From: Microbispora hainanensis
GTDB taxonomy: Bacteria > Actinomycetota > Actinomycetes > Streptosporangiales > Streptosporangiaceae
Length of the DNA: 64,000 bases
Assembly: GCF_036186745.1 (NCBI RefSeq)
Contig: NZ_CP108086.1
Location: 2,108,001-2,172,000, forward strand
Direction: 5' to 3'
Shown here: positions 56,441-60,861 of the stretch, in pieces
Layout of the letters: every line of letters begins with the position of its first letter
Position numbering within the stretch: position 1 is the stretch's first letter
The notes under the pieces: generated by a model
Told to the model about the DNA's origin: nothing
Seen by the model: only the letters and a program-made list of their open reading frames with translations
Database searches by the model: none
Program-made: the position numbers and the translations under genes

Positions 56441-58147
56441 ATGGAAGGCGTCGATCTCAACGCTGTATGGGCTCGGGCGCTCAGGACCCTGCTCGACGAG
56501 GGCGTCTCGGGGCAGCAGCGCGCGTTCCTCCAGATGACGCAGCCCTCCGGCCTCATCAACGACACGATTCTCCTGGCGGCCCCCAACGACTTCGCCAAGG
56601 AGGTCATCGAGGTACGGCTGCGCCCGCTGATCGTGCACGCGTTGTCGCAGGAGCTCGGCCGGCCCGTGCGGATCGCCGTGATGGTGGATCCCGGCGCCGG
56701 TCTGCCCGCCGCCTCGGACCCCGCCGCGGCGTCGCCGGCCGATCATCGTCCACAGGCGCCGTCCACAGATTATCCACAGCCCCGTCCGCAGGCTCCGCGC
56801 TTTCCCTTAGCTGAGGACGGCCCGATCCGCCGCGACGCCGAGCCGCATTATCCACAGGGCCAGCAGTATCCACAGCCTCCGCAGCACATGTCCCCGCCGG
56901 ACCACGCGCAGCGGCCCGGCGGTTACTCCCCCGAGCCGCCCGCCGCGCCCAAGCCCGAGCCGGTGCCGGGCCCAGTGGCCGGTCCCGCATCCGGCCCCGT
57001 GTCCTCCGGTCCCGTGCCGGGCCCGGTGCCAGGCGCCGTACCCGGTTCTGTGCCGGGCGGCCCCGGGCAGAACCGCTGGGACGCCCGCAGTGGCCGCACC
57101 TCCGGCGAGCCGGCCCGGCTGAACGCCAAGTACACCTTCGAGACGTTCGTCATCGGCGCCAGCAACCGCTTCGCGCACGCCGCCGCCGTCGCGGTCGCCG
57201 AGGCCCCCGCCAAGGCGTACAACCCGCTGTTCATCTACGGCGACTCAGGGCTGGGGAAGACCCACCTGCTGCACGCGATCGGCCACTACGCGCAGAGCCT
57301 GTACGACGGCGCCCGGGTGCGGTACGTGAGCTCCGAGGAGTTCACCAACGACTTCATCAACTCCATCCGCGACCACAAGGCCGACGGGTTCCGCTCCCGC
57401 TTCCGGGCTGTGGACATCCTCCTTGTCGACGACATCCAGTTCCTGGAGGGCAAGGAGCAGACGCAGGAGGAGTTCTTCCACACCTTCAACACCCTCCACA
57501 ACGCCAGCAAGCAGATCGTCATCTCCAGCGACCGGGCGCCCAAGCAGCTCGTGACGCTGGAAGACCGGCTGCGCAACCGGTTCGAGTGGGGGCTGATCAC
57601 CGACGTCCAGCCGCCCGAGCTGGAGACCCGCATCGCGATCCTGCGCAAGAAGGCGATCCAGGAGGGCCTGGCCGCGCCGCCCGACGTGCTGGAGTACATC
57701 GCCAGCCGCATCGCGACCAACATCCGCGAGCTCGAGGGCGCGCTCATCCGGGTCACCGCGTTCGCCAGCCTCAACCGGCAGTCCGTGGACATCCAGCTCG
57801 CCGAGATCGTCCTCAAGGACCTCATCAGCGAGGACGCGAGCCCGGAGATCACCATCTCCCTCATCATGTCCACAACCGCCGAATACTTCGGTGTGTCGCT
57901 CGACGACCTGTGTGGAAGCTCACGCTCGCGCGCCCTGGTCACCGCCCGCCAGATCGCCATGTATCTGGCCCGCGAGCTGACCGACCTGTCGCTGCCGAAG
58001 ATCGGCCAGCAGTTCGGGGGACGCGACCACACCACCGTGATGCACGCGGAGCGTAAGATCCGGTCGCTCATGGCGGAGCGGCGCTCGATGTACAACCAGG
58101 TCAACGAGCTGACGACACGGATCAAGCAGCGGGCACGCAACGCTTAG
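56441..58147 (+). CDS. dnaA: Chromosomal replication initiator DnaA
   Basis: The 568-residue initiator has domain I ([21 protein letters not shown]), a long Pro-rich linker (about 90-230), the AAA+ domain with Walker [10 protein letters not shown] near residue 267, Walker [12 protein letters not shown] and [11 protein letters not shown], and domain IV with the box-binding helix [15 protein letters not shown]. The linker repeats [17 protein letters not shown]. Its DNA contains several DnaA boxes and a rare TTA Leu codon (56807). The ATG follows GAGAGGAGG. It is followed by oriC and dnaN. Confidence 0.98.
56746..56874 (+). promoter_or_regulatory. DnaA boxes inside the dnaA linker coding region
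   Basis: Two perfect boxes TTATCCACA (56770-56778, 56848-56856) and three near matches (TCGTCCACA 56746, CCGTCCACA 56759, GTATCCACA 56866) lie in one orientation. In the dnaA frame the last three sites at 56770, 56848 and 56866 encode YPQ each time (DYPQP, HYPQG, QYPQP). Confidence 0.75.
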
Positions 58148-58250
58148 TACACAGCTGTGGATAACTCTGTGGATCAAAAACGCCGCCCTCGGCGGCGGCT
58201 CCGTCGCGATACCCCCACCCTCTCCGGCCCTCCAACACGCCGTCCCCACT

Positions 58251-58327
58251 TGGGGACAACTTTGGGGAGAACCTGGGGATCGTTTGGGGAATACCCGTGG
58301 ACGACCTGGGGACGCCCTGTGCGTACA
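58251..58327 (-). repeat. 11-bp-phased weak DnaA-box array 1
   Basis: TGGGGA or CGTGGA cores begin at 58251, 58263, 58274, 58285, 58296 and 58307, with a weaker TGTGCG at 58318. Spacings are 12 then 11 throughout. All point the same way as the strong box at 58156. Confidence 0.8.
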
Positions 58328-58359
58328 CGTCACACACAACTCAGGTGTCCCTTTTACCC

Positions 58360-58436
58360 CGTGGACAACCGGTGGAAACCTCGTGGATTACTCGTGGACA
58401 GAGGGCACTCCGCCTGGGGAACGGGTGTGGGCACAG
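58360..58436 (-). repeat. 11-bp-phased weak DnaA-box array 2
   Basis: Cores begin at 58360 (CGTGGACAA), 58371, 58382, 58393, 58415 and 58426, with one empty 11-bp slot at 58404. The period is exactly 11 bases, and the orientation is the same as array 1. Confidence 0.8.
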
Positions 58437-58671
58437 CGCGGCCGCCCACAGTCCACAGGGGGTCCGTCCACGTTTCCCCCACACCGGCAGTGGATGAATC
58501 AGCTCCGCTGAGCTGCGAAAATGCTCGACATCCACATATCCACACTGCCTAATGAGACGACTTGTATCTCTCTCCCTAAGAACTCAAGAACCATAGAAGG
58601 GGTTCTGGAGGCGCACAGGTGCGGGAGAGTGAAGACTTGACGAAGCAGCGACACCCAGGAGGCTGATCCAC

Positions 58672-59811: not shown

Positions 59812-59916
59812 CACGGCCCGAACACCCCGGGCGTACGATCTCCTGCGGGCATGGACCCCTTGTGCATGGGTACGCGTGCCTCCGTGGACGACGCAGACGT
59901 TTGAGGGGTGGCTCAG

Positions 59917-60861
59917 ATGCAGATCGGCATGATCGGGCTCGGCAAGATGGGCGGGAACATGGCCGAGCGACTGCGGCGCGGCGGGCACGACGTCGTCGGC
60001 TACGACCGTGATCCCTCCATCAGCGACGTGAGCAGCCTGAAGGAGCTCGTCGAGAGGCTTCAGGCGCCGCGCGCGGTCTGGGTCATGGTCCCCGCGGGGA
60101 AGCCCACACGCAGCACGGTCGAGCAGCTGCGCGAGCTGCTGTCGGAGGGTGACATCGTCATCGACGGCGGCAACTCGCACTACCTGGACGACCAGCGGCA
60201 CGCGGCCGACCTCGGCACCCACGGCATCGGCTTCGTCGACGTGGGCGTCAGCGGCGGCGTCTGGGGCCTGGAGTACGGCTACGCCCTGATGACCGGTGGC
60301 GAGGAGGAGCACGTCCGCCGGCTCATGCCGATCTTCGAGACGCTCAAGCCGGAGGGCGAGGACGGCTTCGTCCACGCGGGCGGCGTGGGCGCGGGCCACT
60401 TCGCGAAGATGGTCCACAACGGCATCGAGTACGGCATGATGCAGGCCTTCGCCGAGGGCTGGGAGCTGCTGGAGGCCAGCGACGCCGTCACCAACGTCCC
60501 CGAGACGTTCAAGAGCTGGCGGCACGGCACGGTGATCCGGTCCTGGCTGCTCGACCTGCTGGTGCGGGCGCTGGAGGAGGACCCCGACCTCTCCGAGCTG
60601 AAGGGCTACGCGGAGGACTCCGGCGAGGGCCGGTGGACGGTCCAGGCGGCCGTGGACCACGCGGTGCCCCTGCCGGCCATCACGGCCGCGTTGTACGCGC
60701 GTTTCGCCTCGCGCCAGGCCGACTCCCCGGCGATGAAGATGGTCGCGGCGCTGCGCAACCAGTTCGGCGGGCACGCGGTCGCCTCCGCCGAGGGCCAGAC
60801 CGGCAAGGGCGCCGACGCCCCCGGCGCCGACGTCACCCCGCCGGTCGAGGTCGAGGGCTGA
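59917..60861 (+). CDS. gnd: 6-phosphogluconate dehydrogenase (decarboxylating), short form
   Basis: The 314-residue enzyme oxidises 6-phosphogluconate to ribulose 5-phosphate and CO2. It has the dinucleotide motif MIGLGKMGGNMAERL, the substrate motif DGGNSHYLDD and the catalytic Lys/Asn region GHFAKMVHNGIEYGMMQAFAEG. The short form without the long C-terminal tail is typically NAD-dependent; cofactor here is not tested. ATG at 59917 follows GAGGGG; a GTG at 59908 is also possible. It lies between dnaN and recF as in other actinomycetes. Confidence 0.95.
   Translation: MQIGMIGLGKMGGNMAERLRRGGHDVVGYDRDPSISDVSSLKELVERLQAPRAVWVMVPAGKPTRSTVEQLRELLSEGDIVIDGGNSHYLDDQRHAADLGTHGIGFVDVGVSGGVWGLEYGYALMTGGEEEHVRRLMPIFETLKPEGEDGFVHAGGVGAGHFAKMVHNGIEYGMMQAFAEGWELLEASDAVTNVPETFKSWRHGTVIRSWLLDLLVRALEEDPDLSELKGYAEDSGEGRWTVQAAVDHAVPLPAITAALYARFASRQADSPAMKMVAALRNQFGGHAVASAEGQTGKGADAPGADVTPPVEVEG

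Follow-up and report, generated by a model that had tools for sequence, protein, structure and literature searches.

Analysis of the origin region of Microbispora hainanensis revealed two arrays in which degenerate DnaA boxes follow each other head-to-tail (58251-58326 and 58360-58434) with an 11-bp step, which places successive 9-mers 2 bp apart. The conservation of this spacing despite changed letters between the sites suggests that the rows serve as a ruler for stacking DnaA, and we consider it likely, at roughly four chances in five, that both arrays are cooperative DnaA-loading ladders inside oriC that provide a same-face scaffold, a reading based on sequence comparison. The position, phase and orientation of the sites, the conservation of their cores and spacer lengths, the neighboring box pair and the low-stability region are direct observations. 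Comparison with related origins showed that the ladder is a usual feature of the family but not of the order or class as a whole.

Two phased arrays in the dnaA-dnaN intergenic region

The window analyzed here is a 64,000-nt stretch of the M. hainanensis genome, and all positions are given within it. Its oriC is the 527-bp gap between the end of dnaA at 58147 and the start of dnaN at ~58675, with the identity of both genes confirmed by Pfam. The window DnaA contains PF00308 and PF08299, and its DNA-binding domain can be aligned with the Mycobacterium tuberculosis (3pvp/3pvv) and E. coli (1j1v) DnaA domains, sharing GGRDHTT with 1j1v; the phased arrays are thus set in an origin region adjoining a dnaA whose ATPase and DNA-binding domains are intact. 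Over its final 95 residues, DnaA does not differ from its M. bryophytorum and M. rosea counterparts, and the intergenic sequence is closest to that of M. rosea. A 6-phosphogluconate-dehydrogenase-like gene (59908-60861) is located between dnaN and a RecF/SMC-like gene, one same-family genome contains two matches to the DnaA C terminus (G015:C145:11167-11445 and G015:C604:1986-2261), and GC skew across the 64-kb window was small and uninformative.

Sites were scored against the textbook box TGTGGAYAA, with no training on the window and, unless another is given, a cut-off of 6/9. The features of oriC are as follows.

58156..58164, + strand: strong DnaA box TGTGGATAA, first of the double box; 9/9 match to the consensus
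58168..58176, + strand: second box of the strong pair, TGTGGATCA, at a 12-bp step; 8/9; identical in 15/15 genus origins
58251..58259, + strand: array 1 slot 1, TGGGGACAA, followed by a 12-bp step; 8/9
58263..58271, + strand: array 1 slot 2, TGGGGAGAA; 7/9
58274..58282, + strand: array 1 slot 3, TGGGGATCG; 6/9
58285..58293, + strand: array 1 slot 4, TGGGGAATA; 6/9, counted by hand
58296..58304, + strand: array 1 slot 5, CGTGGACGA; 7/9
58307..58315, + strand: array 1 slot 6, TGGGGACGC; 6/9; identical in 15/15 genus origins
58318..58326, + strand: array 1 weak slot 7, TGTGCGTAC; 6/9, without the GG core
58327..58359, no strand: inter-array spacer; variable letters, constant length within the genus
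58360..58368, + strand: array 2 slot 1, CGTGGACAA; 8/9; identical in 15/15 genus origins
58371..58379, + strand: array 2 slot 2, GGTGGAAAC; 6/9; identical in 15/15 genus origins
58382..58390, + strand: array 2 slot 3, CGTGGATTA; 7/9
58393..58401, + strand: array 2 slot 4, CGTGGACAG; 7/9
58404..58412, no strand: array 2 empty slot, without a box; letters vary, 11-bp width conserved
58415..58423, + strand: array 2 slot 6, TGGGGAACG; 5/9, counted by hand; under the scan cut-off
58426..58434, + strand: array 2 slot 7, TGTGGGCAC; 7/9
58449..58457, - strand: box-like site TGTGGACTG, on the strand opposite to the arrays; 7/9
58489..58497, + strand: box-like site AGTGGATGA; 7/9; GTGGATGA conserved in 15/15 genus origins
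58528..58544, - strand: box pair TGTGGATGT and TGTGGATAT with an 8-bp step, adjoining the unwinding region, in the orientation opposite to the arrays
58549..58563, + strand: degenerate DnaA-trio-like stretch CTAATGAGACGACTT (CTACTACTAC in many relatives); trio consensus from PMC8287927
58549..58607, no strand: least stable DNA of the region in a nearest-neighbor profile, the probable unwinding element

A core is present at every position where the earlier note had placed one, and the consensus scan bore out its description of DnaA-box-like sites in a single orientation with helical phasing. The twelve steps between sites are, in order, 12, 11, 11, 11, 11, 11, 42, 11, 11, 11, 22 and 11; thus the periodicity stands, but ten of the twelve, rather than the claimed eleven, are exactly 11 or 22 bp (nine of 11 and one of 22), and only the opening step (12) and the gap between the arrays (42) deviate. 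The cores had been given as TGGGGA or CGTGGA, but 58371 reads GGTGGA, 58426 TGTGGG and 58318 TGTGCG. Both arrays are on the + strand, not in opposite orientation, and same-orientation 9-mers follow each other at 2 bp, apart from the first step of 12 and one empty slot. With 5-8 of 9 positions matching TGTGGAYAA, the window slots are off the high-affinity consensus.

At a cut-off of 6, we found six same-strand pairs exactly 11 bp apart, whereas 2000 dinucleotide shuffles averaged 0.10 and never gave more than 2. Six pairs were also found at a cut-off of 5 (1.24 in shuffles, with six reached by 1/2000) and one at a cut-off of 7 (0.003 in shuffles, reached by 6/2000); conditional on site number and span, p = 1.2e-4. 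At a cut-off of 8/9, none of the 15 same-genus origins contained a pair 11 bp apart, indicating that the signal belongs to the weak boxes. Where sites overlap, the slot scanner keeps the one with the higher score, or the first one if scores are tied; this greedy choice selected 58283 over the tied 58285, which lowered the count, and 58415 (5/9) fell under the cut-off. Strict step-11 runs in the window comprised five and four slots, and 5000 shuffles yielded one run of three and none of four.

No other run of at least three slots was found on either strand of the 64-kb window at steps of 10, 11 or 12. In the 8.8-Mb genome, the pattern GKGGAN6GKGGAN6GKGGA had six matches, five of them in oriC, and the reversed control pattern had none. 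The sixth match (4278412) was rejected as a ladder; it spans a probable gene start and is presumably a chance match.

Conservation of the spacing in the genus and the family

Comparison of the 15 same-genus origins revealed that 63/66 core columns were invariant versus 28/55 linker columns, with a mean pairwise diversity of 0.018 in cores and 0.166 in linkers, a difference reached by 0/20000 permutations. Across 58251-58434, a range that also covers the spacer between the arrays and the boxless slot at 58404, the alignment contained zero gaps, and 58172-58250, just upstream of array 1, contained 15 gap cells and one inserted column. Gap-free arrays with variable linkers indicate that within the genus the letters between sites changed and their number did not. 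Autocorrelation of the conservation profile was weak and lacked a sharp peak at 11 (0.21 at lag 11, 0.22 at 9 and −0.10 at 22). Three other same-genus origins are letter-identical to the M. bryophytorum, M. rosea and M. triticiradicis origins. As one half of its own test, the earlier note had asked whether the period would be lost in close relatives with an alignable oriC; it survives in them.

The same alignment bears on whether the arrays are a neutral tandem repeat, in which an 11-bp unit, a box, was multiplied by slippage and is now decaying. Tandem Repeats Finder reports a period of 11 for 58251-58319 (6.2 copies, 63% matches) and 58356-58398 (3.9 copies, 75% matches). However, decay of such a repeat should strike cores and linkers equally, whereas the cores are near invariant and the linkers vary. 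Indels occur next to the arrays but not inside them, and the same layout, including the empty slot, persists across genera. The neutral repeat, contradicted by the core conservation, was set aside as very unlikely.

For the wider survey, 189 intergenic regions (181 distinct) were taken from 191 loci, with L023 and L151 left out for having no dnaN on the locus. Ladders were counted in 185 of these, after dropping L031 (a duplicate of L006, the window) and three intergenic regions of at least 1600 bp (L066, L095 and L097). The set of 44 named origins represents 14 named genera and one Nocardiopsaceae strain, which we take to belong to Streptosporangiales genera. The Streptomyces-type set (n = 13) consists of five Streptomyces origins and eight of a single family (f18), judged to be of the same kind partly from origin layout.

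The survey groups overlap, and common descent of the origins means that counts are not independent trials. Strict step-11 runs of at least four slots were present in 15/15 same-genus, 13/20 other same-family and 40/44 named origins, compared to 0/13 Streptomyces-type origins, 1/63 other class members and 2/30 other named records (two MAGs, one of which, L146, has an intergenic region identical to that of same-family L020). For runs of at least three slots, the corresponding counts were 15/15, 18/20 and 44/44, compared to 0/13, 4/63 and 4/30. When identical sequences were merged, the family set, made up of the same-genus, other same-family and named groups, comprised 74 distinct origins, with runs of at least three in 72 and of at least four in 63. 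The weight of the survey rests on spacing that was retained while linkers diverged.

Other steps did not produce comparable ladders, as no survey group contained a run of four at steps of 9, 10, 12, 13 or 14. Runs of three at step 12 were found in 1/20 same-family, 3/44 named, 6/13 Streptomyces-type, 2/63 class and 1/30 other named origins, and among the 63 other class origins runs of three also occurred at step 10 (3/63) and step 13 (1/63). Chains of at least four slots, with one empty slot allowed, appeared at step 11 only, in no group at steps of 8-10 or 12-15, and 900 shuffles did not exceed 2. Same-strand distances between boxes scoring at least 7/9 in 45 named origins (including the misplaced L159) peaked at 11, 22 and 33 (193, 167 and 138 pairs), compared to 0.4 at 11 in shuffles; a lesser peak at 12 (78 pairs) is partly due to the strong double box.

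No ladder was detected in three same-order genomes of another family, f3 (L052-L054, within the 63), in two Streptosporangiaceae MAGs (L140 and L153, within the 30) or in same-family L051, and L034 has a pair only. Because these origins and the Streptomyces-type origins (0/13) do without it, the ladder is not indispensable for initiation. When E. coli oriC was scored in the same way as a positive control, its known arrays were not clear (best four-slot 11-bp ladder, 21/36), since weak sites in E. coli depart much further from the consensus. A missing ladder in the survey is accordingly no proof against weaker arrays in Streptomyces or others.

The composition of the slots in relatives points to DnaA. 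A matrix of 275 slots, with the two Microbispora rows excluded and 4 of 25 rows misanchored, reads T-G-K-G-G-A-Y-A-A-C-C, and perfect boxes occupy ladder positions in Herbidospora (TGTGGATAA) and in L019, where three consecutive slots are TGTGGATAA. Iterons are similar in general layout to degenerate 11-mers, and a different protein that recognizes 11-bp iterons could in principle occupy the arrays; this is exceedingly improbable given the convergence of the unit on the DnaA consensus in relatives and the location of the arrays next to a dnaA with a conserved DNA-binding domain. Slot composition also bears on the GGGG runs of array 1, which could have been selected as a G-quadruplex. All 15/15 genus origins contain a pattern of four GGGG runs spaced by loops of 1-10 (58252-58289 in the window), but it occurs in only 13/44 named origins versus a phased run of at least three in 44/44, and ladder slots of relatives also read TGTGGA, TGCGGA or TGAGGA. 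We set this highly improbable explanation aside because the four G runs are not generally conserved in relatives.

The layout of the two arrays is also shared within the family. Among 23 anchored family origins, the distance from array 1 slot 6 to array 2 slot 1 was 53 bp in 11 and 54 bp in 12. Four Nonomuraea-type origins (L016, L131, L132 and L136), set aside from slot means as misanchored and then listed individually, also showed the 54-bp step. Measured from the last captured slot by the plain ladder scanner, the gap was 42-75 bp, with 74 in two further origins (L033 and L037). Microtetraspora, Acrocarpospora and Herbidospora, along with several origins of Streptosporangium and Nonomuraea, show the complete array 2 pattern of 11, 11, 11, 22, 11; it passes the cut-off in only 4/15 same-genus origins, and the window fails owing to the score of 5 at slot 58415 (TGGGGAACG). 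With a mean score of 2.13, the empty slot resembles background (2.41), whereas other slots average 6.1-8.0. In other genera the equivalent of 58404-58412 often starts with ACCCC and may be a site of its own.

The exact step is not kept in every origin. In the four Nonomuraea-type origins, array 2 slots 3 and 4 are 21 rather than 11 bp apart, and array 1 shows a step of 21 in L132 and of 10 in L136. The 10 extra bp in array 2 amount to about one helical turn, providing a natural phasing experiment.

Proposed loading of DnaA and a possible link to unwinding

Because each 11-bp unit combines a degenerate DnaA 9-mer with a linker of 2 bp, successive DnaA molecules would line up head-to-tail along almost one face of the helix. 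DnaA would probably bind first to the best site of each array, slot 1 (58251 and 58360), which no other slot outscores in 16/23 origins for array 1 and in 21/23 for array 2. The weaker slots would then be filled toward the dnaN/unwinding side, and neighboring ATP-DnaA molecules would lock into an oligomer. Together with the opposite box pair at 58528-58544, this oligomer could drive opening of 58549-58607, where the DnaA-trio-like element would take the single strand. DnaA occupancy, filling order, ATP dependence and the connection to unwinding are what we infer.

The earlier note had envisioned a filament nucleated by the strong box at 58156, but this part of its proposal is not supported. 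The strong pair is separated from array 1 by 83 bp (58168 to 58251), a stretch of variable length that contains indels within the genus. Across genera the distance is not fixed either. In 44 of 47 origins a distance of 82-118 bp separates array 1 from the nearest upstream strong box, as measured to the second window slot (the window's 95 corresponds to 83 to slot 58251). The exceptions, at 21, 23 and 33 bp (L036, L119 and L132), have a strong slot just ahead of the ladder. Because the upstream distance varies, we do not accept contiguous nucleation from 58156. The first strong box itself is TGTGGATAA in 13/15 genus members and TGTGGATAT in two.

Another possible role of the arrays is titration of DnaA or autoregulation of dnaN or dnaA expression, instead of an initiation scaffold. 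The boxes are directly upstream of dnaN, and many weak boxes could titrate DnaA. However, titration requires number, not phase, and the fixed 11-bp step, common orientation, neighboring box pair and low-stability region are more in keeping with an orisome. A titration or autoregulation site in place of a scaffold is therefore unlikely, although the two roles can coexist.

On the unwinding side of the proposed scaffold, the lowest-stability 30-bp intervals of the nearest-neighbor profile start at 58549-58578, directly after the opposite-orientation box pair. A second, slightly less unstable spot (~58143-58181) lies across the final bases of dnaA and the strong double box. The basal unwinding system described in PMC8287927 consists of tandem boxes followed, at ~10-13 bp, by repeated trio triplets (3'-GAT-5'). 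The unwinding-side sequence of L020, GTTATCCACACTGTCCACAGCCCCTACTACTACTACG, matches the B. subtilis box pair and DnaA-trio system of the same source. The pair and trio element are clear in many relatives; in Microbispora the trio is degenerate, and the window has one CTA followed by degenerate triplets. A clean box pair with a CTACTACTAC-type trio was seen in L042-L049, L177, L180 and L184 (Streptomyces-type) and in the relatives L020, L028 and L161. Using a regular expression, the pair and trio were found in 11/13 Streptomyces-type origins, and no such pair was found in 5/77 origins (L131, L135, L150, L175 and L178).

Comparison with known origins

The earlier note had considered a periodic weak-site ruler to be no standard description, yet it is the accepted description of the E. 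coli arrays (PMC6727663). In E. coli, gaps of exactly 2 bp separate the low-affinity sites, which share one face of the helix and become occupied step by step starting at a strong site (PMC4451416). In vivo, E. coli DnaA prefers box pairs 2-3 bp apart, and at purH the addition of one bp to a 3-bp gap strongly lowers binding (PMC11317965). The E. coli arrays R5M-tau2-I1-I2 and C3-C2-I3-C1 (Rozgaja et al. 2011, as cited in PMC4451416 and PMC6727663) resemble those of the window in having degenerate 9-mers exactly 2 bp apart, one orientation per array and one face, and the 3-bp separation of R4 and C1 at the strong-site end in E. coli has a counterpart in the 12-bp first step of the window. In contrast, the E. 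coli arrays have four slots and are opposed, whereas the window arrays have 6-7 slots in the same orientation, and the window slots match 5-8 of 9 positions compared to only 21/36 for the best four-slot 11-bp ladder of E. coli. Unlike E. coli, the window has no separate strong box adjoining an array. In E. coli a high-affinity box is reachable at 3 bp (lateral) or ~45 bp (bending); the strong pair of the window lies 83 bp away at a variable distance, and the first slots score 8/9.

Similar principles have been described in other bacteria. The DnaA-oligomerizing region of Thermotoga maritima likewise has direct boxes, and a spacing of 2 bp between them is optimal for the pairing of ATP-DnaA, but its minimal origin has five boxes, with boxes 2 and 3 inverted (PMC10316083). 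Closely spaced box arrays have been noted for Thermus thermophilus and Aquifex aeolicus, where clustering is thought to favor AAA+ neighbor contacts (PMC6727663). The basal system of B. subtilis (DnaA-box 6/7 and DnaA-trios, PMC8287927) is like many relatives of the window in its box pair, short GC-rich stretch and CTA-type triplets, whereas the trio is degenerate in the Microbispora genus and the ladders are additional.

Thus, the phased weak-site principle is already known from the E. coli arrays and Thermotoga 2-bp pairing, and what is new is the longer, closer-to-consensus, family-wide two-array form, absent from 13 Streptomyces-type origins. In the open-licence literature searched, we found no report of this form, and to that extent the earlier note was right that the ruler is undescribed for actinomycete origins. 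According to the 2019 review (PMC6727663), cryptic low-affinity DnaA sites had been mapped in few origins beyond E. coli and close relatives, and binding assays were needed; here, fixed spacing and conserved cores reveal candidate arrays by sequence alone in 44/44 named origins. As a tentative and rather doubtful extension, the two-ladder ruler of this actinomycete family might keep phase fixed while per-slot affinity is tuned by species (TGTGGA, TGGGGA, TGCGGA or TGAGGA), with TGGGGA-type slots as the counterpart of E. coli ATP-DnaA-selective sites. If true, ordered loading on phased weak sites would be a general bacterial timing principle, revealed by conservation without binding assays.

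Finally, Streptomyces oriC resembles that of the window in its dnaA-dnaN location, two clusters, and unwinding-side box pair and trio. Its DnaA boxes, 19 in number, form two clusters separated by a spacer (PMC3411110, PMC5448010) and extend over ~950 bp (PMC4285127, PMC3411110), whereas the window has a 527-bp intergenic region with a ladder layout and is not a Streptomyces-type oriC. All 13 Streptomyces-type origins lack a step-11 run of three, and 6/13 have a step-12 run of three. Origins with a ladder (Streptosporangium, Nonomuraea and Microbispora) and without one (Streptomyces) offer a natural comparison, and the question of whether DnaA loads in an order dictated by phased weak sites becomes testable outside enterobacteria.
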